A DNA stretch of 32,765 nt, from NCBI GenBank assembly GCA_903830425.1, contig CAIKTR010000160.1, forward strand, positions 1 to 32,765, read 5' to 3'. This document shows positions 1,726 through 32,765 of this stretch, one piece after another (position 1 is the first letter of the stretch; each line of letters begins with the position of its first letter). A model generated the notes under the pieces. The model was not told the origin of the DNA and ran no database searches. It saw only the letters and a list, made by a program, of their open reading frames with translations. The DNA comes from an uncultured Opitutia bacterium (GTDB lineage: Bacteria; Verrucomicrobiota; Verrucomicrobiia; Opitutales; Opitutaceae). The position numbers were made by a program, and so were the translations under genes.

Positions 1726-1745
1726 CCGGGCCGCCCGGCCGCCCC

Positions 1746-2114: not shown

Positions 2115-2132
2115 CCCGGCGCGCGCCCCGCG

Positions 2133-11372: not shown

Positions 11373-12689
11373 TCAGCCGATGATCTCGGCGACGAGGGGC
11401 GGCAGCGCGCCCGGCGCCTCGCCCACGACGATGGCCGCGGCCAGCAGGGCCCTGGCCTCCGCCAGCGCAGCCTCGTCGTTGGCATGGATCACGCAAAGCG
11501 CGCCGCCGGCCGCCACCGGTTCGCCCACCTTCAGCAGGTGGCTCACGCCCACCGCCGGATCAATCGGGTCGGACACCCGGGTCCGGCCCGCGCCGAGCCG
11601 CAGCGCGGCCAACGCCACGCCTCGCGCATCCACGCCCTGCACCATGCCCGCCCGCGGCGCCGGCAGCGGCACCTGGAGCCGCGCCGCCGGCAGCCGGCCC
11701 GGCTCGTCCACCACCCGGACGTCGCCCCCCTGCCCGCGGACCATCTGGCGAAATTTTTCCAGCGCCGTCCCCTGCGTCAGGCTCGCCGCCAGCTGGCGGT
11801 GCGCCTCGGCCGGCGTGGCCGCCACCCCGGCGAGCACCAGCATCTGCTCCCCGAGCGCGTACGTGACGGCCATCGTGTCCGCGGGGCCGCGGCCCCGGAG
11901 GCAGTCGATGGACTCCGCCACCTCCAGCGCATGGCCCACTGCGCGGCCCAGCGGCTGCTCCATCGCCGTCAGCACCGCGCGCGTCGGCTTACCCAGCGCC
12001 GTGGCCACCGCCACCAGCGCCAACGCCAGCTCCCGCGCCCGCGCCCGGTCCGGCATGAACGCCCCCCGGCCGAACTTCACGTCGAGCACCAGCACATCAA
12101 TCCCCTCGGCCAGCTTCTTCGCCAAAATGCTCGCACAGATCAGCGGGATGCTCTCCACCGTCGCCGTCACGTCGCGCAGCGCGTAGAGCTTCTTGTCCGC
12201 CGGCGCCAGCTCCGCCGTCTGCCCGATGAGCGCCAGCCCGCAGCCGGCCAGCTGCGCCCGGTACTCGTCGAGCGACAGGTTCACGCGGAACCCGGGGATC
12301 GCCTCGAGCTTGTCCAGCGTGCCGCCGGTGTGGCCGAGGCCGCGGCCGGAGATCATCGGCACCGCCACCCCGCAGGCCGCGACCATCGGGGCGAGATGCA
12401 GCGAGATCTTGTCGCCCACGCCGCCGGTCGAGTGCTTGTCGGCCTTCGGCTGCGGCAGGAAGGAAAGATCGGCCACGGTGCCGGAGCGCATCATCGCCGT
12501 GGTCAGCCCGGTGGTCTCCTCCGGGGTCATGCCCCGGAGAAAAATCGCCATGAGCAGGGCCGTGAGCTGGTAGTCGGCCCAGGAGCCGTCGGTGGCGCCG
12601 CGCACAAACGCCTCGATCTCGGCGGGCGTGAGCACGCCGCCGTCGCGCTTCCGGGCAATGATGTGCTGGGGATAGACCGGAGAGGACAT
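11373..12689 (-). CDS. deoA: Thymidine/pyrimidine-nucleoside phosphorylase
   Basis: About 438 residues. It catalyses phosphorolysis of thymidine (or pyrimidine nucleosides) to base plus (2-deoxy)ribose-1-phosphate in the cytoplasm. The family signature is present as SGRGLGHTGGTLDKLEAIPG, preceded by the phosphate-site motif KADKHSTGGVGDK and followed by ALRDVTATVESIPLI and DVKFGRGAFM. The N-terminal helix domain (PQHIIARKRDGG) and C-terminal domain are complete. The start could also be an ATG 15 bases upstream (12704); neither has a ribosome binding site. Whether it is DeoA or the broader Pdp type cannot be decided here. DeoC and aldehyde dehydrogenases of the same catabolic route lie 5-8 kb away on the same strand, not in the same operon. 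Confidence 0.92.
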   Translation of the reverse strand: MSSPVYPQHIIARKRDGGVLTPAEIEAFVRGATDGSWADYQLTALLMAIFLRGMTPEETTGLTTAMMRSGTVADLSFLPQPKADKHSTGGVGDKISLHLAPMVAACGVAVPMISGRGLGHTGGTLDKLEAIPGFRVNLSLDEYRAQLAGCGLALIGQTAELAPADKKLYALRDVTATVESIPLICASILAKKLAEGIDVLVLDVKFGRGAFMPDRARARELALALVAVATALGKPTRAVLTAMEQPLGRAVGHALEVAESIDCLRGRGPADTMAVTYALGEQMLVLAGVAATPAEAHRQLAASLTQGTALEKFRQMVRGQGGDVRVVDEPGRLPAARLQVPLPAPRAGMVQGVDARGVALAALRLGAGRTRVSDPIDPAVGVSHLLKVGEPVAAGGALCVIHANDEAALAEARALLAAAIVVGEAPGALPPLVAEIIG

Positions 12690-12731
12690 GGCAACCCCGG
12701 TCATAAGCGCCCCCCCGGGCCCCTGCCGATT

Positions 12732-17449: not shown

Positions 17450-18328
17450 TCACGCGCCAATCGGGTGCCAGGTGGTCTTGTACTCCAGCGTGTCGCCCAC
17501 CGCCGCGAGGCTCTGCGCGTCCGCGGCGTACCAGTCGATCCGGTCCTCGGCCGGCCGCAGCCGCGTGCGCTTCACGCTCTCCGCCGCGCCCAGCCGCAGC
17601 GCCCGGCGCTCCCCGGCCGTGGCAACCCCGCTGAGGGCGCGGAGATGGGTGTGGGTCGCAAAGGTCGGCACCAGCTCCCGGCGAAACCCGGTGAGCAGGT
17701 TGACCACGCCGCCCGGCAGGTCGCTGGTGGCCAGCATCTCCCCGAGGAGGATCGCGGGATACGGCTGACTCTCCGAGGCCAGCGCCACGACCGTGTTGCC
17801 GCTGACGATCGCCGGGGCGAGGAGCGACGCCAGGCCCAGGAGCGCCGGGGTGGCGGGCGCCAGCACCCCCACCACGCCCATCGGCTCGGTGACCGTGAAG
17901 TTGAAATACGGCGCCGCCACGGGGTTCACGCTGCCGAGGAGCTGCTCATACTTGTCCGCCCAGCCGGCATAATAAATGATCCGGTCGATGGTCGCCGCGA
18001 CTTCCCGCGCCGCCGCCGCCCGCGCGCGGGGCGTGGCCTTCACCCCCACCAGCAGCGCCGCCGCCAGCTCGGCGGACCGGGCCTCCAGCATCTCCGCCAG
18101 CCGGTAGAGGATCTGGCCGCGGTTGTAGGCCGTGCGCTTCGCCCAGCCCGGGCCGGCCGCGGCCGCGGCCTCGATCGCGTTGCGCAGGTCCTTGCGCGTG
18201 CATTGCGGGATGTGGGCGAAAAAGGCCCCGGCCGCGTCCCGGAGCGGAAACACGCGCGCGCTCTCCGAGCGGATGAAGGCGCCGCCGACATAGACCTTGG
18301 GCGTTTTGGTGATGGGAAGTCTGCTCAT
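17450..18328 (-). CDS. Non-catalytic, short aldehyde dehydrogenase-like protein (second ALDH16-type domain)
   Basis: A 292-residue protein that aligns with roughly the first 260 residues of aldehyde dehydrogenases (YVGGAFIRSESARVFPL, TAYNRGQILYRLAEMLEARS, DRIIYYAGWADKYEQLLG, EPMGVVGVLAPATPALL, LPGGVVNLLTGF). It then ends in a short unrelated tail rich in Trp, Tyr and Arg. It lacks the catalytic Cys and general-base Glu regions altogether. The position of the conserved PWN Asn is replaced (APATPA), and the NAD-site Lys (KPAE) is replaced by ASES. It should therefore be inactive as a dehydrogenase. It lies 76 bases downstream of a complete ALDH gene; together the two match the layout of the bidomain ALDH16. 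It is probably a structural partner rather than a pseudogene. Confidence 0.85.
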   Translation of the reverse strand: MSRLPITKTPKVYVGGAFIRSESARVFPLRDAAGAFFAHIPQCTRKDLRNAIEAAAAAGPGWAKRTAYNRGQILYRLAEMLEARSAELAAALLVGVKATPRARAAAAREVAATIDRIIYYAGWADKYEQLLGSVNPVAAPYFNFTVTEPMGVVGVLAPATPALLGLASLLAPAIVSGNTVVALASESQPYPAILLGEMLATSDLPGGVVNLLTGFRRELVPTFATHTHLRALSGVATAGERRALRLGAAESVKRTRLRPAEDRIDWYAADAQSLAAVGDTLEYKTTWHPIGA

Positions 18329-18404
18329 GGGAAAAGGGCCGGGCCGGGGGCCGCAGGGCCGGCCGAGGTGGGGTGCGTGGACATGGGGGCGGCGGCGGGT
18401 GGCC

Positions 18405-19901
18405 TCAGGCCAGACGGCAATAGTCGAGCAGGCCCTGGCGGCCGCCCTCGCGGCCGAAGCCGCTCTCCTTGTAGCCGCCGAAGGGCGAGGCGGGGTCGAA
18501 CTTGTTGTAGGTGTTGGCCCAGACCACGCCGGCCTTCAGCTCCGTCGCCAGCTTCAGGATCCGCGCGCCCTTGTCCGTCCACACCCCGGCGCTGAGCCCG
18601 TAGGCCGTGTTGTTGGCCTTCTCCACCGCCTCCTCCGGCGTGCGGAAGGTCAGGATCGAGAGCACCGGGCCGAAGATTTCCTCGCGCGCGATGCGCTGGC
18701 TCATCGTCACCCCGGAAAAGAGCGTGGGGCGGAAATACCAGCCCCGCGCCGGCAGTACGCACGCCGGCTGGTACAGCTCGGCCCCTTCCCGCACGCCGGC
18801 TTTGACCAGCGCCGTGATCTTGCGCAGCTGCTCCCGCGAGTTGATCGCGCCGAGGTCCGTGTTCTTGTCCAGCGGGTCGCCCACCCGCAGCACCTGCAGG
18901 CGCTGCTTGAGCTTCGCCAGCACCCGGCCGGCGATGGACTCCTGCACCAGCAGGCGCGAGCCGGCGCAGCAGACGTGCCCCTGGTTGAAGAAGATGCCGT
19001 TGATCACGCCCTCGACCGCCTGGTCCAGCGGCGCGTCGTCAAAGATGATGTTCGCCGCCTTGCCGCCCAGTTCCAGGGTCATCTTCTGGTCGGTGCCCGC
19101 CAGCGACCGCAGGATGCTCTTCCCCACCTCGGTCGAGCCGGTGAACGCGACCTTCGCCGCGGTCCGGTGGCCCATGACCGCGGCGCCCACCTCGCCCGCC
19201 CCCGTCACGATGTTCACCACGCCGGGCGGCAGGTCGGCGTCCTGGATGATCTCCGCCAGCTTCAGCGCGGTGATCGAGGTCGTCTCGGCCGGCTTCAGCA
19301 CCACGCAGTTGCCCATCGCCAGGGCCGGCGCGAGTTTCCACGCGCACATTAGCAGCGGGAAATTCCACGGGATCACCTGCCCCACCACCCCCAGCGGCGC
19401 GACCCGGCGGCCGGGGGCCACGTAGTCGAGCTTGTCCGCCCAGCCCGCGTGATAGAAGAAATGCGCCGCCGCCATCGGCACGTCGAAGTCGCGCGACTCC
19501 TTGATCGGCTTGCCCCCGTCCATTGTCTCCGCGACCGCAAATTCGCGGGCCCGGTCCTGCAGCAGCCGCGCGATGCGGAAGAGGTACTTGGCGCGCTCGC
19601 GCCCGGGCATCCGTCCCCAGGTGGTGTCGAACGCCCGCTGGGCCGCGGCGTAGGCGGCGTTCACGTCGGCCGTCCCGGCCCGCGCCAGCTCGGCCAGCTT
19701 CCGCTCGGTGGCCGGGTTGATGGAGTCGAAGACCTGCCCCGACTTCGCCGGGGTGAACCGGCCGTTGATGAACAGCCCGTAGCGGGCCAGCAGCTTGGGA
19801 TCCGCGGTCTCCGGCGCGGGATCGTACGGCCAGAGGTCGCCAAAGATGAGTTCGGGCGCGGGCCGGCCGCGACGGCGCGGGTTCAGGGTGAAGGTGGCCA
19901 T
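18405..19901 (-). CDS. Aldehyde dehydrogenase (catalytic, ALDH16-like first subunit)
   Basis: A 498-residue NAD(P)-dependent aldehyde dehydrogenase of normal length. Visible catalytic features are Asn180 in VIPWNFPLLM, Lys203 in VLKPAETTS, FTGSTEVGK, general base Glu277 in LELGGKAAN and nucleophile Cys311 in FFNQGHVCCAGSR. The C-terminal EEIFGPVLS, FGGYKESGFGREGG and the oligomerisation tail are present. The N-terminus carries an unusual 40-residue lead with FGDLWPYDPAPE before the usual LFINGRF. It follows deoC by 28 bases, so its likely substrate is acetaldehyde released by the aldolase, giving acetate. That is inferred from context only. A non-catalytic ALDH homologue follows. Confidence 0.93.
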   Translation of the reverse strand: MATFTLNPRRRGRPAPELIFGDLWPYDPAPETADPKLLARYGLFINGRFTPAKSGQVFDSINPATERKLAELARAGTADVNAAYAAAQRAFDTTWGRMPGRERAKYLFRIARLLQDRAREFAVAETMDGGKPIKESRDFDVPMAAAHFFYHAGWADKLDYVAPGRRVAPLGVVGQVIPWNFPLLMCAWKLAPALAMGNCVVLKPAETTSITALKLAEIIQDADLPPGVVNIVTGAGEVGAAVMGHRTAAKVAFTGSTEVGKSILRSLAGTDQKMTLELGGKAANIIFDDAPLDQAVEGVINGIFFNQGHVCCAGSRLLVQESIAGRVLAKLKQRLQVLRVGDPLDKNTDLGAINSREQLRKITALVKAGVREGAELYQPACVLPARGWYFRPTLFSGVTMSQRIAREEIFGPVLSILTFRTPEEAVEKANNTAYGLSAGVWTDKGARILKLATELKAGVVWANTYNKFDPASPFGGYKESGFGREGGRQGLLDYCRLA

Positions 19902-19929
19902 GGTGGGTAAGGGGTCTGCGCCGCGGGGG

Positions 19930-20868
19930 TCAGTAGCTCGTCGCCGCTTCGCTGAAATAATACGGCGCCTGGTAGGCCCCGGTCCGCTCCTTGGCCAGCT
20001 GCCGGACCAGGTCGTTGAGCAGCGCGCTCGCCCCGAACCGGTAGCGGCGGTTGTTCAGCCAGGCGTCGCCCAGCGTCTCCTTCACCGCCACCAAAAACTG
20101 CAGCGCCTGCTTCGCCGTGCGGATGCCGCCCGCCGGCTTCATCGCGATCGGGATGCCGGTGTCGAGGTAGAAGTCGCGGATCGCCTCCAGCATGACCTGG
20201 TTGTTGCCCAGCGTGGCGTTGAGCGCCGTCTTGCCCGTGCTCGTCTTGATGAAGTCGCCGGGCCGGAGGACCGTCATGGCCAGAAAGGAGGCGGCCCGGA
20301 TCTTGTCGTACGTCTCGAGCTCGCTGACTTCGAGGATCACCTTGAGCGTGGACCGGCCGCACGCGTCGCGCACCGCGGCGATCTCGTCCTGCACGCGGGA
20401 AAACTCCCCGGCCAGGAACGCCCCGCGGTTGATCACCATGTCGATCTCGTCGGCCCCGTCGGCCACCGCCGCCCGCACCTCGCCGAGCCGCGTGGCCAGC
20501 GGCGCCTGGCCGGACGGGAAGGCCGTCGCCACCGAGGCGATCCGCACCTTCGCCCCCGGGCCCAGCGCCCGGCGGGCGTGGCGCACCATCGCCGGATACA
20601 CGCAGACCGCCGCCACCGGCGGCACCGCCGGGTCGTCGGACGGCCGCAGCGCCTTCCGGCAAAGCGAGGCCACCTTGCCGGGCGTGTCCTTGCCCTCGAG
20701 CGTCGTCAGGTCGACCATCGCCACGGCGGTCCGCAGCCCCCAGAGCTTGGCCGCCTGCTTCAGGCTCCGGGTGGCGTATTTGGCGACACGCTCCTCGACC
20801 CCGACGCTGTCGACCGGGCCGACTTCATCGAACAGCCGGCGAAACGACGCTGACGGGCCTGCGTTCAT
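19930..20868 (-). CDS. deoC: Deoxyribose-phosphate aldolase
   Basis: A 312-residue class I aldolase that splits 2-deoxyribose-5-phosphate into glyceraldehyde-3-phosphate and acetaldehyde. The Schiff-base lysine is Lys208 in FIKTSTGK. The second active-site lysine is Lys244 in AMKPAGGIRT, and the proton-relay Asp143 is in ADEIDMVINRG. The protein is longer than E. coli DeoC (259 aa) because of an N-terminal helical extension with DLTTLEGKDTPGKVASLC, the long form common in several phyla. I chose ATG 20868 (MNAGPSASFRRLFDEVG); an in-frame start at 20934 would add a non-conserved hydrophobic lead. It heads an operon with two ALDH-family genes and faces a divergent thioesterase gene. Confidence 0.93.
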   Translation of the reverse strand: MNAGPSASFRRLFDEVGPVDSVGVEERVAKYATRSLKQAAKLWGLRTAVAMVDLTTLEGKDTPGKVASLCRKALRPSDDPAVPPVAAVCVYPAMVRHARRALGPGAKVRIASVATAFPSGQAPLATRLGEVRAAVADGADEIDMVINRGAFLAGEFSRVQDEIAAVRDACGRSTLKVILEVSELETYDKIRAASFLAMTVLRPGDFIKTSTGKTALNATLGNNQVMLEAIRDFYLDTGIPIAMKPAGGIRTAKQALQFLVAVKETLGDAWLNNRRYRFGASALLNDLVRQLAKERTGAYQAPYYFSEAATSY

Positions 20869-20975
20869 TAGGTCGCGGAGGATGCCGCCGCCCGCCGGCG
20901 AAAACAACGGAAAACTCGCCGCGGCCCCGCGCATGCGGCTTGCACGGCCTCCCCGGCGGGGATTGTTTACCCCCC

Positions 20976-21857: not shown

Positions 21858-23177
21858 CTACTCCGCCCCCACGTCGGCGAACACCGTCGGGTTGCCCAGC
21901 ACGGCGCGCACCAGGATCGAGGGATACTCGCAGTAGCCGCGCGGCCCGGTCATGTCCACCCGCGCCACTTGCAGCGGATGGTAGCGCTCGTGCCAGAAGC
22001 CGCCGCACTTGAGCCCCATCTGGCAGACCTTCAGCACCGACTCGCGCAGACGCTTCGTCTCGCCGCGTTTCACGCAGGCCTGCCACTCGAGGAACCACAC
22101 CCGGCCCATGGCCGCGGCGTCGTAGAGCGGGCCGTTGGGGATCTCGAAGCCGACGTCCTCGTGGGAGGAGTGGAACTCCCACTCCTGGTAGGTGAACGGC
22201 TTCGACACCGTCTGCGTGGGCATGTCGCCGTGCCAGAACGACCGCTCGGCCATCATCCGCGGCCACAGCGCATCGGCCTGCGCCGGCGTCGCCACGTCGT
22301 AGGCCACCGCCGCCCAGTTCACGTCGGACAGGCCGTGCAGGTCGACCACGCCGCGCTCCGGATGCACGTACTCGGCAAAGTGGTCGCCGCGCCAGAAGAC
22401 CTCGCGGAAGCGCGCGGCCAGCGACTCGGCCGCGGCCGTCCAGCGCGCCGCCGCCGGCTTCCGGCCCAGGGCCTGGCACAGCCGGGCCAGCTGGCGCAGC
22501 GCGTGGATCGCGTAGCACTGCGCGACCCCGTCCCACTGGTGCCGCGGCGGCAGCTCGGTGTAAAACCCCGCGCCCGCCACCAGGCCGTTCTCGCTCCGGC
22601 GCGACAGCAGGAAGCTCCCCGCCGACTCCAGCGACGCGAGCTTCGCCTCCAGCCAGGCCTCGTCCTGCGCGGTGAAAAAAATCTCCCCGCCCATCAGGAT
22701 GAAACTGGTCGCCCCGAGGATGCTCAGCGGGTTGATCCCCGCGATCCAGTGGCTGTAGCAGCCGATCCACCGCCGCGGGGCGTACCCCGCGCATTTCGGA
22801 TCAAAGGTGAAGACGTCCTGCGGGTACCGGATCCCCTTCAGGTAGGTGGTGAGATGCTCCGGCGGCGGGTCGGCCGGAAACACCGCGAACGGGATGTTGC
22901 CGTCCGCCCGCTGCGTCGCCTGCACAAAATCGAAGTAGCCGCGCACCAGCGCCGCCTTCCCCAGCAGCAGGTAGGCGCCCGCCATCTGCCACGAGTCGAG
23001 CCCCGGCCAGGTGTTTTCCGCCCCGAACCAGTGGCCGTCGGCCACAATCGTGAAGTGCCCCGGATAGGCCCGCTCCGTGGCGGCCGGCTCGAGCGACTGC
23101 CGGATCGCGGCGGTCAGGCCCTGGCGGATGATCGTCGCGTCATCGGACGCGGGCACGGGGGATTCGGCGGTCGGCAT
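21858..23177 (-). CDS. Putative six-hairpin glycosidase-like protein
   Basis: A 439-residue protein without signal peptide. The pattern suggests an (alpha/alpha)6 barrel of the six-hairpin glycosidase class (GH15/GH63/GH37-like): FGAENTWPGLDSWQMAGAYL, FVQATQRADGNIPFAVFP, RRWIGCYSHWIAGINPLSIL, SENGLVAGAGFYTELPPRHQ, a repeated LARLCQALGRKPAAARWTAA segment and HSSHEDVGFEIPNGPLYDAA. Acidic residues in ENTWPGLDSW, SHEDVGFE and near the C-terminus (GPRGYCEYPS) are candidates for catalysis, but the exact family is not recognised. The gene starts 3 bases after the stop of the PhyH dioxygenase gene, so the two form an operon. The enzyme probably acts on an internalised glycoside. Confidence 0.75.
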   Translation of the reverse strand: MPTAESPVPASDDATIIRQGLTAAIRQSLEPAATERAYPGHFTIVADGHWFGAENTWPGLDSWQMAGAYLLLGKAALVRGYFDFVQATQRADGNIPFAVFPADPPPEHLTTYLKGIRYPQDVFTFDPKCAGYAPRRWIGCYSHWIAGINPLSILGATSFILMGGEIFFTAQDEAWLEAKLASLESAGSFLLSRRSENGLVAGAGFYTELPPRHQWDGVAQCYAIHALRQLARLCQALGRKPAAARWTAAAESLAARFREVFWRGDHFAEYVHPERGVVDLHGLSDVNWAAVAYDVATPAQADALWPRMMAERSFWHGDMPTQTVSKPFTYQEWEFHSSHEDVGFEIPNGPLYDAAAMGRVWFLEWQACVKRGETKRLRESVLKVCQMGLKCGGFWHERYHPLQVARVDMTGPRGYCEYPSILVRAVLGNPTVFADVGAE

Positions 23178-23180
23178 GGG

Positions 23181-23942
23181 TCAGGCGGGGTTGGGCGGAG
23201 CGAAGCTCAGGATCGAATCATCCGGCGACAGGGTGATCGGCACGGGCTGGCCGTGGCCGCCCCGGCCGTACGGGATGTTCGAGCGCGCGTTGTAGCAGCA
23301 GATGTAGGCCCGGCGGGGCCGGTCCGAGAGATTGGCTTCGGAAGCGTGAAACGTGTTCCCGTGGAAAAACAGCGCGCTGCCGGCGGGCGCCTCACAGTAC
23401 GTCACGCCGAGCCGCTCCATCACGGCCGCCACCCGCGCCTGGTCCGCCCCCGCCTGGCCGCCCACGCGGCCGTGCTCCAGCCGGCCGAGCTGGTGCGAGC
23501 CGGGAATCACCTTCAGGCAGCCGTTCTCCCGGGTGGCGGGATCCAGCGCGATCATGCAGGAAATCATCCGCGGGTAGAGGCACCCGTCGCCGTACCAGTA
23601 GCCGTAATCCTGGTGCCATTCCCACGCGCCGCCCACCCGCGCCTCCTTCAGCATCACCTTGCTGTGCCAGTGATACACGTCCTCGCGCAGCAGCTGCCGC
23701 ACGCTGGGGACAATCCGCGGGCTGGTGGTCACCGCGCCGAAGACGTCGGGGCTCACGTCCGACCACAGCGACAGCTTGCTCAGGCGGCCGCTGGCATCCG
23801 GCAGGTTGAACTGGTGCTGGGTCGCCCGGCCTTCCTGCGTGACATTGGCCAGCAGGATCTCGACCTCCCGCGGGGTGAAAACGTCCGGCACGAGGACAAA
23901 GCCGTCGCGGTCGTACGTCTGGATCTGGTCGGGGGTCAGCAT
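23181..23942 (-). CDS. Phytanoyl-CoA dioxygenase (PhyH) family protein
   Basis: A 253-residue Fe(II)/2-oxoglutarate-dependent oxygenase. The N-terminus MLTPDQIQTYDRDGFVLVPD is typical. The iron site is visible as His110-x-Asp112 in WEWHQDYGYWYGDG and distal His199 in FFHGNTFHASEANLS, with the 2-oxoglutarate-binding Arg in DRPRRAYICCYNAR. The segment RENGCLKVIPGSHQLGRLEH is also family-typical. The substrate is unknown; bacterial PhyH proteins hydroxylate diverse metabolites. ATG 23942 matches the family start, and the frame is open further upstream without conserved sequence. It is the first gene of a pair with the glycosidase-like gene. Confidence 0.9.
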   Translation of the reverse strand: MLTPDQIQTYDRDGFVLVPDVFTPREVEILLANVTQEGRATQHQFNLPDASGRLSKLSLWSDVSPDVFGAVTTSPRIVPSVRQLLREDVYHWHSKVMLKEARVGGAWEWHQDYGYWYGDGCLYPRMISCMIALDPATRENGCLKVIPGSHQLGRLEHGRVGGQAGADQARVAAVMERLGVTYCEAPAGSALFFHGNTFHASEANLSDRPRRAYICCYNARSNIPYGRGGHGQPVPITLSPDDSILSFAPPNPA

Positions 23943-24858: not shown

Positions 24859-26730
24859 ATGAAATCCCTGCGCCCGTTCGCCGCGGCCTTCGCGTCCCTC
24901 TGGGGCGCCGTGCTGGTCAGCGCCAGCCTCGCCTCCGTCCCGGGACCAGGGCCCGACGACGACGCCTACCGCGCCCAGTTCCGCGAGCGCTGCACCGCCG
25001 CCCGCGAGACCATGGCCCGCCAGTCGTGGCAGCCCGGCATGGACTCCCGCATGCGGATCTACCTGGGCGTCGTGAAGCTCGCCTCGGGCCACGACGCCGC
25101 CACCGGCCTCCGCTACCTGGCCGACGCGGTCGCCGACCCCCAGCCCCAGTGGGGCAGCTTCGAGACCTATGCGTTCATGGACGCCGTGCTCCGCCTCGGG
25201 CCCAAGCTCCCGGCCCCGCTGGTGGCCCAGATCCGCGCGCGGCTCGCGGCCAGCTTCACGCCGGACTTCGGCTTCACCGACAACCACATGCTGCAGTTCC
25301 GCACCGCCCGCTATCTCTTCGGGCAGACCTGGCCGGAGGGCGCGGCGCTGGCCGACGGGACCACCCCCCGGCAGTCGCAGCAGGAGGCCGCCGCCTGGAT
25401 CGAGCGGTGGATCGACGCCACCGCCACGCGGGGCATGTACGAGTACGACTCCCCCAACTACCACCACCTCTACCTCCTCTGCCTCGCCAGCCTCCACGAG
25501 TACGCCCAGGATGCGCACCTGCGGAAAAAAGCCTGGATGATGCTGCAGGTGCTCCTGGTGGACTGGGCCTCCGAGTACCTGGACGGCGTCTGGGTCGGCG
25601 CCCACAGCCGCGAGAAATACAACCAGGTCCTCCACACCCGCGAGCACACCGGCGCCGCCACCCAGTTCGGCCGGCTCTTCTTCGGCGGCGCGCCCCTCCG
25701 CCTCGAGCTCGCCGAGACCTACTACATGGCGCTCGGCTCGCTCCAGGCATTCGCGTGCCTGCCGATGGTCGGCCGCATCGCCACGGACCGCCGCCAGCCC
25801 TACGTGCTGCGCGCGCTCAAGCCGCCCCGCCGCGGCCCGGGCATCGCCTACGGCGAGCCCACCTGGACCTACACCTACGTCGCCCCCGAGTTCGCCGTCG
25901 GCTCGTCGTGGGGCGACCTGACCGATGTCGAGAACCACCGCTGGGACCTGACCTGGCGGTCCCCGCAGGACGGCGCCACCTGCTTCTTCCTCAACCCGTC
26001 CTACTCGGCGGCCCAGCTCAGCCGGTATTTTCCCACCCCGCCCAACCTCGTGCTCGCCGACATCGTGCGCCAGCGGCCCTACTACGCCGACCCCCTCAAG
26101 TGGATCGAGGGCTCGCCGTACGAGGATGTGTTCCAGCACGAGAACACCGTCCTCGCGCTCTACGACCTGCCGCCCGACACGGCGCGCCCGCAGGTCAACG
26201 GGTTCTTTCCCCACGTCATCGCCGAGCGGCGCGAGGCGGCGGGCTGGATTTTCGCCCGGGCCGACGGCATTTTTTTCGCCGTCTGGACCAGCGTGCCGGG
26301 CACCTGGCATCCGGCCCCGGACCATGACCGGCTGACCCTGCAGCATCCCCGGACCGCGGTCATCCTGGAGGCGATCCCCGCGCGGGAGGCGACGGACTTC
26401 GACGCGTTCTGCGCCGAGCGACGCCAGCACCCGCCGGCCTTCGACGAGCGGACCCTGACCGCAGCGTACACCACGACCCGCGGGCACCGGATCCAGTTCA
26501 CGCACCGCGGCGCCCGCGTCGTGGACGGGGTCGCCGCCCAGCTGGCCGAGTGGCCCCTGTTTGCGGGACCGTGGATGAACGCCCGCATCGGCACGGGCGT
26601 GATCACCCTGCAGGAGGGGTCCGAGCGGGTGACACTCGACTTCAACACCGCGACCGTCCGCACCGAGGTCATCCGCCCCGAGACCATCCGCCCTGAGACT
26701 GCCCGCCCCGAGACTGCCGCCCCCCGCTAA
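24859..26730 (+). CDS. Large secreted protein, possible polysaccharide lyase or hydrolase
   Basis: A 623-residue protein with an N-terminal signal peptide (KSLRPFAAAFASLWGAVLVS). The first 330 or so residues look alpha-helical (FGFTDNHMLQFRTARYLFGQ, YEYDSPNYHHLYLLCLASLH, LDGVWVGAHSREKYNQVLHT). The rest looks beta-rich (WTYTYVAPEFAVGSSWGDLT, GWIFARADGIFFAVWTS, VTLDFNTATVRTEVI). A helical toroid followed by beta-sandwiches is the layout of several polysaccharide lyases, and the N-Y-H-H cluster could be catalytic. I cannot name a family and do not claim one. The C-terminus ends in a short RPET repeat. The neighbouring convergent operon encodes a glycoside hydrolase, which supports a carbohydrate role. 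Confidence 0.75.
   Translation: MKSLRPFAAAFASLWGAVLVSASLASVPGPGPDDDAYRAQFRERCTAARETMARQSWQPGMDSRMRIYLGVVKLASGHDAATGLRYLADAVADPQPQWGSFETYAFMDAVLRLGPKLPAPLVAQIRARLAASFTPDFGFTDNHMLQFRTARYLFGQTWPEGAALADGTTPRQSQQEAAAWIERWIDATATRGMYEYDSPNYHHLYLLCLASLHEYAQDAHLRKKAWMMLQVLLVDWASEYLDGVWVGAHSREKYNQVLHTREHTGAATQFGRLFFGGAPLRLELAETYYMALGSLQAFACLPMVGRIATDRRQPYVLRALKPPRRGPGIAYGEPTWTYTYVAPEFAVGSSWGDLTDVENHRWDLTWRSPQDGATCFFLNPSYSAAQLSRYFPTPPNLVLADIVRQRPYYADPLKWIEGSPYEDVFQHENTVLALYDLPPDTARPQVNGFFPHVIAERREAAGWIFARADGIFFAVWTSVPGTWHPAPDHDRLTLQHPRTAVILEAIPAREATDFDAFCAERRQHPPAFDERTLTAAYTTTRGHRIQFTHRGARVVDGVAAQLAEWPLFAGPWMNARIGTGVITLQEGSERVTLDFNTATVRTEVIRPETIRPETARPETAAPR
26671..26715 (+). repeat. Three tandem 15-base units encoding (I/A)RPET
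   Basis: Three near-identical 15-base units (26671-26685, 26686-26700, 26701-26715) encode IRPET, IRPET and ARPET at the extreme C-terminus of the secreted protein, 12 bases before the stop codon. The units differ at only a few positions, suggesting recent slippage. Copy number may vary between strains. Confidence 0.85.
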
Positions 26731-26868: not shown

Positions 26869-27846
26869 TCAGACGGTGAGGGCGTCGACCGGCGCGTCCT
26901 GGAACCAGTACGTGACGATGCCGAACCGCACCTGGCCGCTGCCTTCCGCCCGGGCCAGCCGCAACTGATCGTTGTGGATCTCGTGCCGGTAGTTGATCCG
27001 CGCCCGCAGCGACGTGGTGAACCGCACCGGGTCGTTGAGCAGGAACCGATAGCAGGCGAGCCGCGTCTCCCCGTCCGCATCGCGCAGATAGGTCGTCCCG
27101 GAATGGTGGTCGGCCCAGACTTGGTGCCAGCTCCAGCTGAAGCCGAAGAAATCCTCGGTGCCGAGATAGTTGCAGGTCGGCGCGACGGCGTCGTCCACCC
27201 AGAATTCATCGTTGCCCTCGCAGATGCCCTGCTTGTCGGCGAAGTGCGGGCAGCGGCTCACGGCGGTGAGGTGGCACCCGAAGAATTGCCCGCGGCCCCG
27301 GGTGTGCAGCAGCGGCACCTCCTCGTCCGGCAGCGACACGGTGCGGTCCAGCCACCGGGCATGGAAATAGCCGGAGTCCTCCTCCCAGGCCGGCAGCGCC
27401 TCGGCCGTGACGTAGCCGTAGCCCATCACCAGCTGGTCCGTGGTGTTGACCAGCGACAGCTCGATCCCCCGCCGGAAGGGCATCGGGAGGTAGCTGAACC
27501 ACGAGTGGGTCGGGCGCTTCGCCATCACGATGCTGGCATAGTGGAGCGATTCGCCCCCGAAGGAGTCGCAGAAGAAATCGCCGACCGGCACGTGCACGGA
27601 GTCGAAGGGGAGCCCGTCGTAGCGGACCTGGAGGAAGACCCCGCGCAGCAGCGCGGCGCGGTTGCCGTCGGCGATGTTGAGCGTGAGGTGGATGGTGCGC
27701 ACCACCCCGGGTCCGTCGAAGCGGCCCAGCTCAATCCGGCCGCGCGGCGCCAGGTCGGGCAGTTCCGGGTAGGCGTCCCAGTGCCAGAGGCTGTTTTGCA
27801 TCAGCGATCGGTAGGGCCGGATTTTGCAGAAGTCCGCGGGGTTCAT
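26869..27846 (-). CDS. GH172-type (DUF2961) glycoside hydrolase family protein
   Basis: A 325-residue protein of the DUF2961 family, members of which were shown to be GH172 enzymes acting on D-fructofuranose or D-arabinofuranose linkages. Family landmarks are GRFDGPGVVRTIHLTL, VRYDGLPFDSVHVPVGDFF, SYLPMPFRRGIELSLVN, CEGNDEFWVDDAVAPTC and LGTEDFFGFSWSWHQ. The glutamates of the EGNDEF segment (about Glu210, Glu214) and GTED (about Glu231) are the likely catalytic residues by family comparison. There is no signal peptide, so it acts in the cytoplasm. ATG 27846 gives the family N-terminus MNPADFCKIRPYRS; the frame is open further upstream without conservation. It is the last gene of the UroD-like operon, 115 bases after the preceding gene. 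Confidence 0.88.
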   Translation of the reverse strand: MNPADFCKIRPYRSLMQNSLWHWDAYPELPDLAPRGRIELGRFDGPGVVRTIHLTLNIADGNRAALLRGVFLQVRYDGLPFDSVHVPVGDFFCDSFGGESLHYASIVMAKRPTHSWFSYLPMPFRRGIELSLVNTTDQLVMGYGYVTAEALPAWEEDSGYFHARWLDRTVSLPDEEVPLLHTRGRGQFFGCHLTAVSRCPHFADKQGICEGNDEFWVDDAVAPTCNYLGTEDFFGFSWSWHQVWADHHSGTTYLRDADGETRLACYRFLLNDPVRFTTSLRARINYRHEIHNDQLRLARAEGSGQVRFGIVTYWFQDAPVDALTV

Positions 27847-27961: not shown

Positions 27962-29080
27962 TCACTGCGGCCGGCCGCCATGGTGGCGGCACAGCTCCGC
28001 CACCAGCTGGAGGCGCGACCAGGAGGTCGTGATCGCGGTCTGGCAGGCGGCCGCGAACACGAAGCTGTCGAGCCCCCGGACCTGCGGGAAAAAATCCGCG
28101 TAGAAGCGCCGCACCTCGTCGTCCGTCATGAGCACCTGCTCCCGCGCGGAAAAGCCGCCGTCGTAGATGAACCCCGCGGGCATCGCGCGGGCGTCCGCCA
28201 CGGTCCAGTCGCCGAAGGGCGCGTGGGCCATGCCGTCGAGCCCGTCGAGGCCGGCGGCGATGAAGGCGGGCCGCAGCTGGTGCAGCTTGCCGCAGGCGTG
28301 GGCGAGCACGCGCTTGCCCCCGGCGTGAAACAGGTCGGCCGCCTCGCGGACGTACCGCACCCAGTAGCGATCCACCATCTCGCCGGGCGGGTAAAAGGGC
28401 GCGTCGACGTTGTCGGCCCCGAAACAGACGACCTCCACCCGCGGGTCGGCGGCCAGTTCGCGCAGCACCGGCCACAGCCGGCTCCAATACAGGTCGCAGA
28501 CCTCCTGCGCCGCCGCCGGATGGTCGAGAAGGAACAGGCAGGCGCCATCGAGCCCGAAGTCGACATGCAGGCGCTTGAGCGGCGTGTGCGGCAGCGAGGC
28601 CATGACCACGCCGTCGTCGCCGATCTGCCGGAGCGTCTCGGCAAAAACGTCCTGGTCCCAGCGGAAGGTCAGGCGCTCCAGCATCCAGCGGTAGGCCGCG
28701 CCGTCCTGCGCCCAGTCCTTGACGAGGTCCTCCACCGCATAGCTCGAGGTGTACTGGGTCTGCACTTCCGTGAGCCGGCTGAGCTCGCCGTGGGGCGTGC
28801 GCAGCGTGTCGGTGGTGCGCGGCCCCAAGGCGCCCAGCTCGGTCCGGGTCTGCCACGCCGCCCCCTCCAGCCGGTCCAGCACGCCGGCCGGGTTGCGGAT
28901 GAACAGGTCGCAGCCCAGCCGGCGCATCACCTCGAGGTGGTCGCGGGCGTCGGCCAGCTCGGCCGGCAGCGACCCGAAATTCCGGTGGTGCAGGAACCAT
29001 TGCCCGACATTGAGGCTGCAGGGGACCCAGGCGGGGCGCTGCCCGCGCAGCAGGCGCCGGAGGTTGTCGCGTTTCGTCAT
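27962..29080 (-). CDS. Uroporphyrinogen decarboxylase-superfamily protein, array member 1 (zinc-site type)
   Basis: A 372-residue TIM-barrel protein of the URO-D superfamily, which includes HemE and the cobamide-dependent methyltransferases. The start MTKRDNLRRLLRGQRPAWVP is typical. His261-x-Cys263 in LAHACGKLHQL and Cys346 in FAAACQTAITTSW match the His-x-Cys...Cys pattern that binds zinc in methyltransferases of the MtaA/MtbA type. The HemE signatures for binding porphyrin are not visible, so heme synthesis is unlikely. This protein is longer and more divergent than members 2 and 4. It lies 42 bases after member 2. Its substrate is unknown; it may handle methyl groups or be a divergent decarboxylase. 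Confidence 0.85.
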   Translation of the reverse strand: MTKRDNLRRLLRGQRPAWVPCSLNVGQWFLHHRNFGSLPAELADARDHLEVMRRLGCDLFIRNPAGVLDRLEGAAWQTRTELGALGPRTTDTLRTPHGELSRLTEVQTQYTSSYAVEDLVKDWAQDGAAYRWMLERLTFRWDQDVFAETLRQIGDDGVVMASLPHTPLKRLHVDFGLDGACLFLLDHPAAAQEVCDLYWSRLWPVLRELAADPRVEVVCFGADNVDAPFYPPGEMVDRYWVRYVREAADLFHAGGKRVLAHACGKLHQLRPAFIAAGLDGLDGMAHAPFGDWTVADARAMPAGFIYDGGFSAREQVLMTDDEVRRFYADFFPQVRGLDSFVFAAACQTAITTSWSRLQLVAELCRHHGGRPQ

Positions 29081-29122
29081 GGGTGGGAGGCGCGGGGCGC
29101 GGGCCCGCGGGGTGGAGCCGGC

Positions 29123-30154
29123 CTACCCGGACACCGCGCCGATCAGCGCCTCGACATTGGCGAAGGGGGTTTCCACCGCGAGCGTGCAGCCCGAGCCGAG
29201 CACGAAACGCCCGGGGCGGACCGCCGCCGCGGCGGCCAGCGCCTGCCGCGCGACCCGCCGCACCTCCGCCGGGTGGCCGCGCACCAGCACGCCCACCGGG
29301 TCGAGGTTGCCCCAGAGCGCGATGTCGGGGCCGACCGCGCGGCTGGCCTGCGCCAGGTCCGTGCGGTAGTCGATTTCCAGGAGATCGGCCCCGCTGCGCG
29401 CGAGGTCGGCCAGGAGGGGGCCGGTCTCGCCGCAGATGTGGAGGGAAACCGGCTTGCCGGTGGCGGCCTGCAGCCCGGCGATCAGCCGCTGCTCATACGG
29501 CAGGGCGAACTCGCGGTAGCGCCGCGGCCCGATCAGCCCCGCCGGGGAGTCGCCGCCGCTGAGCACGTCGGCGCCCGCCGCCGCCAGGGCGCGGCCGTAG
29601 GCCAGGCCGTAGTCGAGGCAGCGCTCCATCAGCGCCCGCACCAGCGGCGGATCGTCGTCGAGCGCGAGCATGAGTTCGTTGATGCCCATGAGCGCCGCCG
29701 CCAGCGAGAACGGGTACTGGTCAAAGCAGGCCACGACGGCGGCCTCGTCGCCGACCCCCGCGACCACGCGGCGCAGCGCCTCGAGCATCAGCGGGTAGCG
29801 CCCTTGCCGCTCAGCGTCGGGGGGCGGCAGGCGGTCGATCTCCGCCGCGGTCCGCACGCGCGCCTCGCCCAGCCCGCCCCACGGCTGGTCCTCGCCGAGG
29901 GCCCCCACCCGCGCCCCCATCGCCTGCGCGCTGACCCAGGTGTCGGCCGACAGGCAGACGGCGTCGGGCCGGAAGCGCTCGTGGGTGCGGAGCACCGCGT
30001 CGGCCAGAGCGCCCGCGTCGCTGGTGTAGCGATGCAGCGAGATCCCCGCGACCCGCGCGCAGAAATGCACCGCGAGCGGCGCCACCGGCACCCGCGGTGT
30101 CGGCCGACCCTGCAGGGCGCCGAGAAAAAGCTGCTTGGAGGTGGGGGCGGCCAT
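29123..30154 (-). CDS. Uroporphyrinogen decarboxylase-superfamily protein, array member 2 (MtaA/MtbA-like methyltransferase)
   Basis: A 343-residue protein of normal length for the MtaA/MtbA branch, enzymes that move a methyl group from a methylated corrinoid protein to a thiol such as coenzyme M. The zinc ligands are seen as His239 and Cys241 in SLHICGETGPLL and Cys323 in VLGSGCTLAVETP. Other branch features are WGNLDPVGVLVRGHPAEV and the closing FANVEAL. The natural methyl acceptor in a non-methanogen would differ from coenzyme M and is unknown. ATG 30154 (MAAPTSKQLFLGALQG) fits the family start; it follows member 3 by 10 bases. It resembles member 4 more than the others. Confidence 0.88.
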   Translation of the reverse strand: MAAPTSKQLFLGALQGRPTPRVPVAPLAVHFCARVAGISLHRYTSDAGALADAVLRTHERFRPDAVCLSADTWVSAQAMGARVGALGEDQPWGGLGEARVRTAAEIDRLPPPDAERQGRYPLMLEALRRVVAGVGDEAAVVACFDQYPFSLAAALMGINELMLALDDDPPLVRALMERCLDYGLAYGRALAAAGADVLSGGDSPAGLIGPRRYREFALPYEQRLIAGLQAATGKPVSLHICGETGPLLADLARSGADLLEIDYRTDLAQASRAVGPDIALWGNLDPVGVLVRGHPAEVRRVARQALAAAAAVRPGRFVLGSGCTLAVETPFANVEALIGAVSG

Positions 30155-30164
30155 GAGGGGGCGT

Positions 30165-31244
30165 TCAGGACGGCGCGTAGACCGCCGGGTGCTCGCGCGC
30201 ATGGCGGTCGATCCCGTCCATGATCGCCTGGCAGCTGTGCTGCCAGCGGGCCGGCGGCATGTCCTCGGTGATCCCGATCAGGAGCCCGTCCACCGTGCCG
30301 GCCTGGTCGAGCAGGTCGAGGGTCATGGCCTCGACGGCGGCGTCGGAGCGGAGGTGGCCCGACGAGGGGAAGTTGATCCAGAGGACCTTCCCGGGCCAGG
30401 CCGCGCGCGCCTCGGCCAGGGTCAGGTCGGTGTCGGGCGCCGGGGTGAAGGCCTCGAGGTAGTCGAGCGGGGTGCCAGCGATCGCCGTCGCGAGCAGCCG
30501 GGTGTTGGCGTCGAAGTGGCAGCCGATGAGCTTGCCGTGGCGGTGCATGACCTCGGCCGCCTCGTGGTAGTGCGGCACGAAATAGGTCTCGAAGTTCTCC
30601 CGGCCGATGATCTCCGGGGTGACGTTCCCGCCGTAGTTGGCATGCTGCGCGGGCGACGCGGCGACCAGCGGGTAGATCTTGCGCCGGTTCTCCACCAGGA
30701 TCCGGTAGAGGCTCAGCACCTCGTCGCGCCGCTCCATCCACTCCTCGCAGTAGGTCTGCATGCCCATCACGCCGCCGGAGATGAGCTCCTGCATGGGCTC
30801 GAGCCCGAAGTTGGCGCGGAAGATGGCGTCCTCGCCAAACGCGGCCTGGGCCTGCGCAAACTCGGCGTACGCCGGCACGTACACCTCGTCCTGCAGCAGG
30901 AAGCGGATGGCGGCGTAGTCCTCGGGCCGCTTGTAGAGCAGCTCGTGGCGCCAGGAGGTGAAGCCGCCGTCCTCGCTGAGCGTCGACAGCGGGCCGGCGG
31001 GGGTGGCGTAGTGGGTCCGGGTGAACTTGCGCTCCCCCTCCCAGTACACCTGCTGCCGCGTCGGCACGTTCGGCCGGTGCGTCTTGAAGACCGGGAGGCG
31101 GTTGACGATGCACAGGCCGCGGTTGCGCAGCGTGCGCTCGGCCGCGCACTGCGGGATCATGCACTCGTACATCGTGAACGGCACCGTGCCGCCATGGCCG
31201 CCATGCAGGGCAGTTTCAACTCGGGCGCGGGGGGTCAGGTTCAT
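30165..31244 (-). CDS. Uroporphyrinogen decarboxylase-superfamily protein, array member 3 (His-x-Asp type)
   Basis: A 359-residue URO-D superfamily protein. It begins MNLTPRARVETALHGG, the common start of this group, and carries TPAGPLSTLSEDGGFTSW. In the position of the zinc motif it has LIGCHFDANTRLL (His243, Asp245), lacking the Cys of members 1, 2 and 4. The downstream segment is LWINFPSSGHLRSDAAVEA rather than a GN-P motif, and no late Cys matching the third ligand is visible. It is therefore unlikely to be a zinc-thiolate methyltransferase and may have a different reaction. The frame stays open upstream, but that stretch is a shadow of member 4. It starts 16 bases after member 4's stop. 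Confidence 0.85.
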   Translation of the reverse strand: MNLTPRARVETALHGGHGGTVPFTMYECMIPQCAAERTLRNRGLCIVNRLPVFKTHRPNVPTRQQVYWEGERKFTRTHYATPAGPLSTLSEDGGFTSWRHELLYKRPEDYAAIRFLLQDEVYVPAYAEFAQAQAAFGEDAIFRANFGLEPMQELISGGVMGMQTYCEEWMERRDEVLSLYRILVENRRKIYPLVAASPAQHANYGGNVTPEIIGRENFETYFVPHYHEAAEVMHRHGKLIGCHFDANTRLLATAIAGTPLDYLEAFTPAPDTDLTLAEARAAWPGKVLWINFPSSGHLRSDAAVEAMTLDLLDQAGTVDGLLIGITEDMPPARWQHSCQAIMDGIDRHAREHPAVYAPS

Positions 31245-31260
31245 GGTCGGAGAGAGCAAG

Positions 31261-32274
31261 TCAGGGCGCGTGGGACCGCGCATAGTCGCAGAGGGCGTGC
31301 AGGTTCGCCGGCGGCGTGTCCGGCGGGACCTCGCAGCCCGCGCCGACGATGAAGCGGGGGCCGGCGGTCCGGTGGCAGGCCGCCACCGCGGCGGTGACCG
31401 CGTCCGGGGTGCCGTTGCGCAGCACGGCCACGGGATTGAGGTTGCCCAGCAGCACCTGGTCCGGGCCCATCTGCGCCCGGGCGTCGGCCAGCGGCACCAT
31501 GGAATCAAGGTCCACGATGGCGCAGCCCAGCCGGCCCATGCCCCCGAGATGGGCGCGGGTGTTGCCGCAGATGTGCAGGCGGGCCGGCACGCCGAGGGCG
31601 CGGATGCCGTCGACCAGCCGCCGCTCGTGGGGCCAGACAAACTCTTGGTACAGCTCGGGACCGATGAGCGAGGCCGCCGCATCGCCGATGCCGATGAGGT
31701 CGGCGCCCGCCGCGACCTGCTCCCGGGCAAACGCCAGCCCCAGCTCCACCACAAAGGCGAAGAGGTCGTGGACGAAGCCGGGGTCGTCGTAGAAATCGAG
31801 CATCAGCGTGTTGATGCCGCGCAGGTCCGCCGCCTCAGCGATCGGCCCCTCGATCCAGCCCTCGACCAGCCGGTCGCGGCCGACGCGCTCCCGCAGCAGG
31901 GCCACGGCCCGGATGCCGTTGTGCATGCGGCCGCCGCCCAGCGGGTCGGGTTGCGCCAGGCCGGCGAGCTGGACCTTGTCGGCCAGCCGCGCCTCCTCCT
32001 CGACGAGCGCCACCGGCTGCGCGTCGAAATACTGCACGCGCGCCCCGCAGTCAGCCGCCTCGCGCGCGGGGTCGGACATGGTGTTGACGTAGTCGAAGCC
32101 GAACTCCTCCGCCGTGCGGAGCTGCGCCGCGGCCAGCACCCGGTAGTCGGTGCAGTACTCGCGGTAGCGCACCCCGGCCCGCCGGGCCGCCAGCATCATG
32201 GTGATGGGCATGAGGGGGAGCCGGTCCACCGGCCGGCCCGCCAGGTGGGCGAGGATGCGTTCGCGGCCGTTCAC
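31261..32274 (-). CDS. Uroporphyrinogen decarboxylase-superfamily protein, array member 4 (MtaA/MtbA-like methyltransferase)
   Basis: A 337-residue protein of the MtaA/MtbA branch. The zinc ligands are His234 and Cys236 in RLHICGNTRAHL and Cys314 in FIVGAGCEVPPDTPPANL, the most classical set in the array. LLGNLNPVAVLRNGTPDAV and the N-terminal LPLMPITMMLAARRAG also fit. The start is a GTG at 32274 (VNGRERILAHLAGRP). The frame can be read from 32385, but that would overlap the upstream gene by 53 bases with an Arg/Ala-rich lead. It lies 58 bases after member 5. Together with member 2 it suggests corrinoid-linked methyl transfer, although no corrinoid protein is in this window. Confidence 0.88.
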   Translation of the reverse strand: MNGRERILAHLAGRPVDRLPLMPITMMLAARRAGVRYREYCTDYRVLAAAQLRTAEEFGFDYVNTMSDPAREAADCGARVQYFDAQPVALVEEEARLADKVQLAGLAQPDPLGGGRMHNGIRAVALLRERVGRDRLVEGWIEGPIAEAADLRGINTLMLDFYDDPGFVHDLFAFVVELGLAFAREQVAAGADLIGIGDAAASLIGPELYQEFVWPHERRLVDGIRALGVPARLHICGNTRAHLGGMGRLGCAIVDLDSMVPLADARAQMGPDQVLLGNLNPVAVLRNGTPDAVTAAVAACHRTAGPRFIVGAGCEVPPDTPPANLHALCDYARSHAP

Positions 32275-32332
32275 AGGGGGCCGGCGCAGCCGGGAGCGGG
32301 AGGCGACGGGCGGGGCCTGGCGAGCGCGGGCC

Positions 32333-32765
32333 TCACGGGCGAAGGGGCGTTTCCGGGTAATTGCCCTCGCGGCGCCAGACCTCAAGCATCAGCTCGTAGC
32401 TGGAGAGGGGCATGCCGGTGTAGATGCAATTGCTCGTGGAGAAAATGTAGCCGCCGCCAGGCATGCCGTGCCGCAGCGCGTACCGCGCCGCGTCCTCGAT
32501 CTGCGCCGGCGTGCCCGTGTCGAGCATGCCGCAGTGGACGTTGCCAATCAGGCAGACGTCGCGGCCGTGGCGCCGCTTGACCTCGGCGAGGTCGACCGCG
32601 CCCTGCGGGTCCAGCGAGTGGAGGGCGTGCGGCCCGGTCTGCACCAGCTGGTCGAGGATCGGCATGATGTTGCCGTCCGTGTGCTTGATCACGTAGTAGC
32701 CGAGCTCCCGGTAGCCGCGGGTGACCGCGGCGAGATAGGGGGTGACGAACTCCGAGAACTGCGCC
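32333..32765 (-). CDS. Uroporphyrinogen decarboxylase-superfamily protein, array member 5 (5' end beyond the window)
   Basis: The C-terminal 143 or so residues of a further URO-D superfamily protein; the reading frame is open to the right edge, so the start is outside. The motif region reads YYVIKHTDGNIMPILDQLVQ, with His-x-Asp-Gly-Asn in place of His-x-Cys-Gly. It continues with LHSLDPQGAVDLAEVKRR, LIGNVHCGMLDTGTPAQIE and GGYIFSTSNCIYTGMP. This is a well-known form among uncharacterised decarboxylase-like proteins of Planctomycetes and Verrucomicrobia. It probably is not a zinc methyltransferase. As the most upstream gene visible, it or a gene before it carries the operon promoter. Confidence 0.88.
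   Translation of the reverse strand, partial: AQFSEFVTPYLAAVTRGYRELGYYVIKHTDGNIMPILDQLVQTGPHALHSLDPQGAVDLAEVKRRHGRDVCLIGNVHCGMLDTGTPAQIEDAARYALRHGMPGGGYIFSTSNCIYTGMPLSSYELMLEVWRREGNYPETPLRP

Follow-up and report, generated by a model that had tools for sequence, protein, structure and literature searches.

A conserved array of five UroD-superfamily genes in a lake Opitutaceae bacterium and its probable tie to a corrinoid hub elsewhere in the genome

What does a lake bacterium do with five divergent genes of the uroporphyrinogen decarboxylase (UroD) superfamily placed one after another? The question is raised by contig CAIKTR010000160.1 (here C160) from an uncultured member of the Opitutaceae, which in its entirety, 32,765 bases, is the window analysed here; the genes, URO1 to URO5, lie at its right-hand end. 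We consider it probable, at about 0.65, that they encode UroD-fold methyltransferases and belong, as a plug-in module, to a bank of some 50 paralogues feeding a shared corrinoid hub.

The array and its five proteins

The initial annotation described five head-to-tail minus-strand genes separated by gaps of 10 to 58 bases, the last running off the window, and the open reading frames (ORFs) agree. All five encode UroD-fold or UroD-like proteins, and the gaps measure 42, 10, 16 and 58 bases.

27962..29080 (-): URO1, 372 amino acids, divergent UroD-like protein, putative ligands H-C-C; profile score 194.7 bits
29123..30154 (-): URO2, 343 amino acids, MtaA-clade UroD protein, H-C-C; Pfam score 226 bits
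30165..31244 (-): URO3, 359 amino acids, divergent protein of predicted UroD fold, H-D-E; profile score 170.3 bits
31261..32274 (-): URO4, 337 amino acids, GTG start, MtaA-clade UroD protein, H-C-C
32333..32765 (-): URO5, 3' part; 323 amino acids together with contig C32, H-D-N with a Cys adjoining the N

C160 ends in 141 bases that recur exactly, and in the right orientation, at the beginning of contig C32. This overlap completes URO5 at 323 amino acids with a start at about position 680 of C32. This join agrees with complete URO5 orthologues at the same place in relatives.

Conservation in other Opitutaceae, which the initial annotation proposed to check, proved considerable. Across 26 URO3 loci, the array recurs in varied form in 13 related metagenome-assembled genomes (MAGs) besides its own; these are titled Opitutae, Opitutaceae, Cephaloticoccus or Verrucomicrobia, several of them from lakes by name. 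URO5 and URO3 are adjacent, or have only URO4 between them, in all 14 array genomes. URO4 is present in nine of the 14 and URO1 in five, while URO2 directly follows URO3 in ten, lies further off in three and was not found in one, on a contig of 10 kb. All five genes stand in the window's order without a large gap in two genomes (its own and L082). Because gene order is kept in relatives and pairwise ratios of nonsynonymous to synonymous substitution are about 0.11-0.28 for URO1-URO4, the array is more than a chance arrangement; the same ratios led us to reject the idea that these four are decaying gene copies.

The remaining 13 loci carry URO3 at 44-69% identity without the rest of the array, some on stretches of 3-10 kb. 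Their MAG titles include Kiritimatiellaeota, Chloroflexi, Anaerolineae, Lentisphaerae, Planctomycetes, Phycisphaerae, Firmicutes and Armatimonadetes; the exception among them, L097, has a weak URO5-like match (31%). The neighbours of lone URO3 genes in other phyla showed no common theme among 20 proteins scanned. On one such contig, from a Phycisphaerae MAG (L090:4688-9093, +), the URO3 relative comes after another UroD gene and a transposase and before a B12-binding radical SAM protein.

The five proteins belong to the superfamily at different distances. URO2 (226 bits), URO4 (214.6) and the URO5 fragment (67.4) exceed the Pfam URO-D cut-off of 23.9; URO1 and URO3 have no Pfam or NCBIfam family match at E 0.001, and searches of PDB sequences with these two returned no UroD relatives. 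A profile built by iteration from UroD-like proteins of this genome, a kind that can drift, matches URO1 at 194.7 bits and URO3 at 170.3 bits, and in hhalign comparisons with the URO2/URO4 profile the URO3 orthologues reach 96% probability and URO1 56.6. The predicted structure of URO3 (predicted local distance difference test score, pLDDT, 95.8 from 49 aligned sequences, adopted in place of a model from 8 near-identical rows with pLDDT 57) aligns with human UROD, a HemE protein, at Z 23.1 (300 residues, root-mean-square deviation 3.4) and with MtaA at Z 22.4 (291 residues, 3.6); the next-best folds are of MetE type, with Z up to 15.8. As modelled, then, URO3 has the UroD TIM-barrel fold, and profile evidence suggests that URO1 is UroD-like.

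URO2 and URO4 have MtaA (4ay7) as their closest solved relative, and their joint profile matches MtaA at 6.8e-49 (169.9 bits) versus 6.7e-29 for the best HemE. In a tree of 53 rows they group with MtaA, a gene on contig C50 and C55:44254-45270 (support 99/95), URO4 joining the last of these at 100/100. This grouping and match support the earlier view that members of the array resemble the methyltransferases of the superfamily. The two proteins share the fold and aligned H-C-C residues of the methylcobamide:coenzyme M methyltransferases MtaA and MtbA, and differ from that family in falling below the TIGR01463 (MtaA/CmuA) cut-off of 235.4 (URO2 163.1, URO4 161); the URO5 fragment scores 29.3, and URO1 and URO3 have no match to this model. 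Elsewhere in the tree, URO5 pairs with a gene on C74 (100/99), and URO1 and URO3 fall in a five-row clade with genes on C20, C99 and C101 (100/96). Some placements are unsure because of long branches, those of URO1 and URO3 among them. With its genes in separate parts of the tree, we rejected a tandem duplication of one gene as the origin of the array; drawn from several subfamilies, it is therefore an assembled module.

None of the five is a true HemE, as the initial annotation had already held. Against the hemE model TIGR01464 (cut-off 302.95), URO2 scores 92.0, URO4 73.7 and the URO5 fragment 20.6 bits; the genome's HemE is encoded at C59:8574-9602, with 369.1 bits. The letters RQAG, which we take to be a HemE motif, are missing from all five array proteins and present in HemE and two other genes. 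Thus URO3 shares the HemE fold (Z 23.1), but the array sequences lie far below the HemE cut-off and carry metal-ligand-like residues in place of those of HemE.

In the columns aligned with the zinc ligands of MtaA, URO1, URO2 and URO4 have H-C-C, URO3 has H-D-E and URO5 has H-D-N. Within orthologue groups, the H-C-C set of URO2 and URO4, a putative zinc site, is unchanged across all 14 aligned rows, as are H243, D245 and E327 of URO3 in 21 of 21 and H261, C263 and C346 of URO1 in five of five. Among the genome's other UroD genes we find H-C-H (nine), D-D-H (six), H-D-H (five), H-C-D (three) and other sets; H-C-C is rare, occurring in URO1, URO2, URO4, C55:44254-45270 and, by eye, C122:22158-23042.

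A proposed shared corrinoid hub and the bank of UroD genes

UroD genes are found on many contigs of this genome, in several clusters of which the array is one. There are 46 matches to Pfam URO-D, 45 of them above the cut-off and two being the halves of URO5, and the own-genome profile adds ten ORFs. The resulting 56 ORFs include the two URO5 pieces, some contig-end fragments and a doubtful member, C55:42959-44221, which sits on a long branch and lacks all the usual ligands. We therefore count about 55 UroD-superfamily genes, HemE, some fragments and at least one doubtful member included. One of them, C122:22158-23042 (+), lies outside the gene-caller ORF set and was found through Pfam; at 49.6% G+C on a contig of 65.3%, it looks horizontally acquired.

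The genome has three B12-binding domains: one in a stand-alone protein on C55, one in MetH on C133 and one on C88. We considered the C88 protein as a second methyl carrier and rejected it, its closest relative being the light-dependent regulator CarH; it also bears little resemblance to the C55 protein (20% identity across 168 columns), and for these reasons we count a single methyl-carrier corrinoid protein. The corrinoid protein, its activator and a methyl-tetrahydrofolate enzyme, each recognised by family models, are all encoded on C55:

C55:38709-39290: stand-alone corrinoid protein of methyl-carrier type; best PDB matches 1y80 and methylamine corrinoid proteins
C55:40257-41888: RACo-type reactivase, the genome's single RACo_C_ter protein
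C55:26188-27051: MeTr-like protein with a Pterin_bind domain, the genome's other Pterin_bind match being MetH

The same contig carries formate-tetrahydrofolate ligase (FTHFS), two MTHFR-domain proteins, two homocysteine S-methyltransferase-domain proteins, an MFS transporter and a DUF1638 protein. Pfam URO-D also matches C55 at 12 places, once below the cut-off. The initial annotation had suggested a dedicated pathway and a look beyond the array for corrinoid and reactivase genes; the family search gave no match to either on C160, and a single reactivase and a single corrinoid protein of methyl-carrier type on C55. Since the genome has other UroD clusters and the hub partners lie on C55, the array does not amount to a self-contained pathway.

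In the pathway that we propose, each array enzyme would take a methyl group from its own substrate, the oxygen or sulphur of which would be held on a metal; the putative ligands differ from gene to gene, with H-C-C in three and H-D-E and H-D-N in the other two. The methyl group would then be handed to the corrinoid protein, encoded away from the array, while the RACo-type reactivase would keep that protein in its active Co(I) state. From the MeTr-like protein the methyl group would go to tetrahydrofolate, to be oxidised by MTHFR-type proteins and released as formate, with ATP, by formate-tetrahydrofolate ligase. Methyl groups could thereby be used without oxygen.

In other genomes, UroD genes and RACo tend to occur together. 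In the genus (12 genomes), there is one URO-D match each in G002, G006 and G008, 11 in G004 and at least 21 in each of the other eight; RACo is present in exactly the nine genomes with at least 11. Among 45 genomes outside the genus, 24 have one match, five have none and 16 have two or more, with at least 29 in G031, which belongs to another genus. For the phylum as a whole, UroD numbers are first-look candidates or the best six or so matches per genome and not full counts. On this basis, of 288 genomes, 93 have at least two UroD genes together with RACo, nine have at least two without it, 12 have RACo with fewer than two UroD genes and 174 have neither (Fisher p 1e-50, uncorrected for kinship). 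Seven phylum genomes (G331, G188, G222, G171, G162, G274 and G250) hold 53-74 first-look candidates with one to three B12-binding_2 domains each; large banks are therefore not confined to this family.

Physical linkage of UroD and RACo is better evidence than their co-occurrence. Eight of the nine RACo-positive genomes of the genus have a UroD gene no more than 4 kb from RACo; in G005, the listed UroD and RACo matches are on separate contigs. In the rest of the phylum, inspection by eye found a UroD gene within 10 kb of RACo in 14 genomes (G031, G017, G014, G030, G204, G117, G129, G103, G123, G179, G058, G247, G077 and G139), a lower bound among the best URO-D matches listed.

DUF1638 may be a further part of the corrinoid system. 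Its gene directly precedes that of RACo on C55, and in a Lentisphaerae MAG (L087:1500-4253, +) the domain is fused to a hydantoinase/oxoprolinase protein of ASKHA type directly after a URO3 relative.

Weighing the shared-hub reading and its alternatives

Several observations weigh against a hub shared by the array. A family search of C160 returned no B12-binding or RACo_C_ter match; the UroD genes on C55 have hub partners alongside, whereas those of the array do not. The hub proteins are named by likeness, because they score below the NCBIfam equivalog cut-offs (corrinoid protein 193.5 of 370, reactivase 340.3 of 800, MeTr 109.4 of 259). The nine phylum genomes with at least two UroD genes and no RACo do not fit. 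Furthermore, the co-occurrence of UroD and RACo is confounded with anaerobic life, since POR_N, a marker of anaerobes, and FTHFS, each present in eight of the 12 genus genomes, split them nearly as RACo does; after this control we no longer treat co-occurrence as decisive. G004 alone separates the markers, having 11 UroD genes and RACo and no match to POR_N or FTHFS. The formate branch is consequently not universal, and G004 may represent an intermediate or a different methyl outlet.

The number of B12-binding domains can be read in two ways. In 31 phylum genomes with at least 20 UroD candidates, there is one B12-binding_2 domain in 13, two in 11, three in five and four in two, MetH included, and across 95 genomes this number does not correlate with that of UroD genes (Spearman -0.03). 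A flat count is what a hub would look like, and it would also be expected if many UroD proteins bypass the hub. Metal use by the array proteins is likewise not certain, given that CdmB functions without zinc according to PMC13222342.

The alternative that survives best, which we regard as unlikely, is a methyl-sulphur or methyl-selenium system like the mlp clusters, in which the three H-C-C members would move methyl groups from thioethers or selenoethers to the corrinoid protein, with URO3 and URO5 as accessories. PMC10418091 links H-C-C to sulphur and selenium substrates and carboxylates to oxygen substrates, so that URO1, URO2 and URO4 show the sulphur/selenium pattern; URO2 and URO4 lie inside the MtaA clade, H-C-C is rare elsewhere in the genome, and C55 has genes of homocysteine S-methyltransferase type. 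However, the carboxylate-bearing URO3 and URO5 are kept together in all 14 array genomes, and the neighbouring genes are of carbohydrate type.

We find it quite improbable that the chemistry is free of corrinoids, for example a sugar-acid decarboxylation or rearrangement, or a direct transfer of methyl groups in the manner of MetE. An array with no corrinoid gene, the few genomes with several UroD genes and no RACo, and a fold that also resembles MetE and 3-keto-glucoside lyases (Z 13-16) would all fit such chemistry; against it, URO2 and URO4 group with a corrinoid-dependent enzyme and UroD genes adjoin RACo in many genomes. Finally, that the five are HemE paralogues of the heme or tetrapyrrole pathway, tied to a divergent radical SAM neighbour of coproporphyrinogen-oxidase type on C32 (PRK08629, 418.6 bits, 5 of 12 loci) as the superfamily annotation might suggest, is rejected as highly implausible in view of their low hemE scores, the missing RQAG letters and the full HemE on C59.

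Neighbouring genes, possible substrates and known systems

The genes to the left of the array were compared across 12 array loci, some of them short:

26869..27846 (-): DUF2961 protein, 152.8 bits, adjoining the array; 5 of 12 loci
24859..26730 (+): 623-amino-acid protein with no Pfam or NCBIfam family match; 5 of 12 loci
23181..23942 (-): PhyH-type dioxygenase, 138.4 bits; 6 of 12 loci
21858..23177 (-): six-hairpin, rhamnosidase-like protein, a weak Bac_rhamnosid6H match of 31.6 bits (cut-off 24.5); 3 of 12 loci

A fusion of Gfo/Idh and aldo/keto reductase domains occurs in nine of the 12 loci, a shorter Gfo/Idh protein in four and an oligogalacturonate-lyase-like protein in seven; two MFS transporters are also among the neighbours. 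This company suggests plant cell-wall sugars, perhaps pectin, and does not by itself identify a substrate; that the oligogalacturonate-lyase-like neighbour is missing at the array's own locus speaks against such an assignment. Genome-wide, a Pfam tally near versus far from UroD genes gives a weak sugar signal: GFO_IDH_MocA, for instance, is found in four of 133 near genes (of 137) and is not among the 25 families listed for 110 far genes. We take methyl ethers of plant cell-wall carbohydrates to be the most likely substrates, with thioethers perhaps among them as well. Of the earlier suggestion that the array handles several methylated or carboxylated substrates, the plurality fits the different paralogues, and carboxylated substrates find no support in these analyses.

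O-methylated sugars occur in pectin and algal glycans, and we know of no oxygen-independent enzyme established for demethylating them. A bolder reading, somewhat less likely than not, extends our interpretation to hub-and-spoke demethylation in Opitutaceae and other Verrucomicrobiota, in which one corrinoid protein and one reactivase would serve dozens of UroD-fold methyltransferases with varied metal sites, each acting in the absence of oxygen on a different methyl ether (or thioether) of plant or algal polysaccharide sugars. The array would be one module of this scheme, perhaps for pectic sugars. If this is true, genes that are routinely labelled uroporphyrinogen decarboxylase point to an unexplored methyl-group economy of anoxic lakes and sediments, and dozens of orphan enzymes could be assayed against one partner protein, that of the single corrinoid hub.

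The components of the hub are known, and the class of enzyme is not new, since corrinoid methyltransferases are among the UroD-fold proteins described in PMC10418091 and PMC13222342. The type 1 mlp clusters, as Kountz and Balskus (PMC10418091) describe them, are alike in uniting several UroD-superfamily methyltransferase lineages, MtaA-related members and H-C-C sites. They hold their own corrinoid protein and reactivase, in contrast to the array, whose partners are elsewhere in the genome, and their members are nearly all H-C-C, whereas two of the five array proteins bear carboxylates; for the corrinoid and Ram/RACE proteins expected in a type 1 cluster, C160 gave no B12-binding or RACo_C_ter match. 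The three-component O-demethylase and haloalkane systems of MtvB, OdmB, VdmB, MtoB and CdmB likewise combine a UroD-fold methyltransferase I with a corrinoid protein, a methyltransferase II and an activating enzyme, and use tetrahydrofolate as acceptor, as we propose here (PMC13222342 for the known systems). According to the same source, cdmBCA is one gene cluster, unlike the present arrangement of scattered UroD genes and single-copy methyltransferase II, corrinoid protein and activator on C55. The literature searched yielded no description of dozens of enzymes per hub, of this scale or of such a carbohydrate setting, and among the titles and abstracts listed from open-licence PMC none dealt with an expansion of UroD genes in Verrucomicrobia or Opitutaceae.

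Two observations concern the surroundings of the array. Beyond its right-hand end, C32 (locus L022) carries at 891-2210 (+) the radical SAM gene of the coproporphyrinogen III oxidase family mentioned above; its PRK08629 score is above the cut-off, and it is divergently oriented from URO5. Farther to the left in the window, genes for thymidine phosphorylase, two proteins of aldehyde dehydrogenase type and a DeoC aldolase (11373-12704 and 17450-20934, both on the minus strand) look like a set for deoxynucleoside breakdown.

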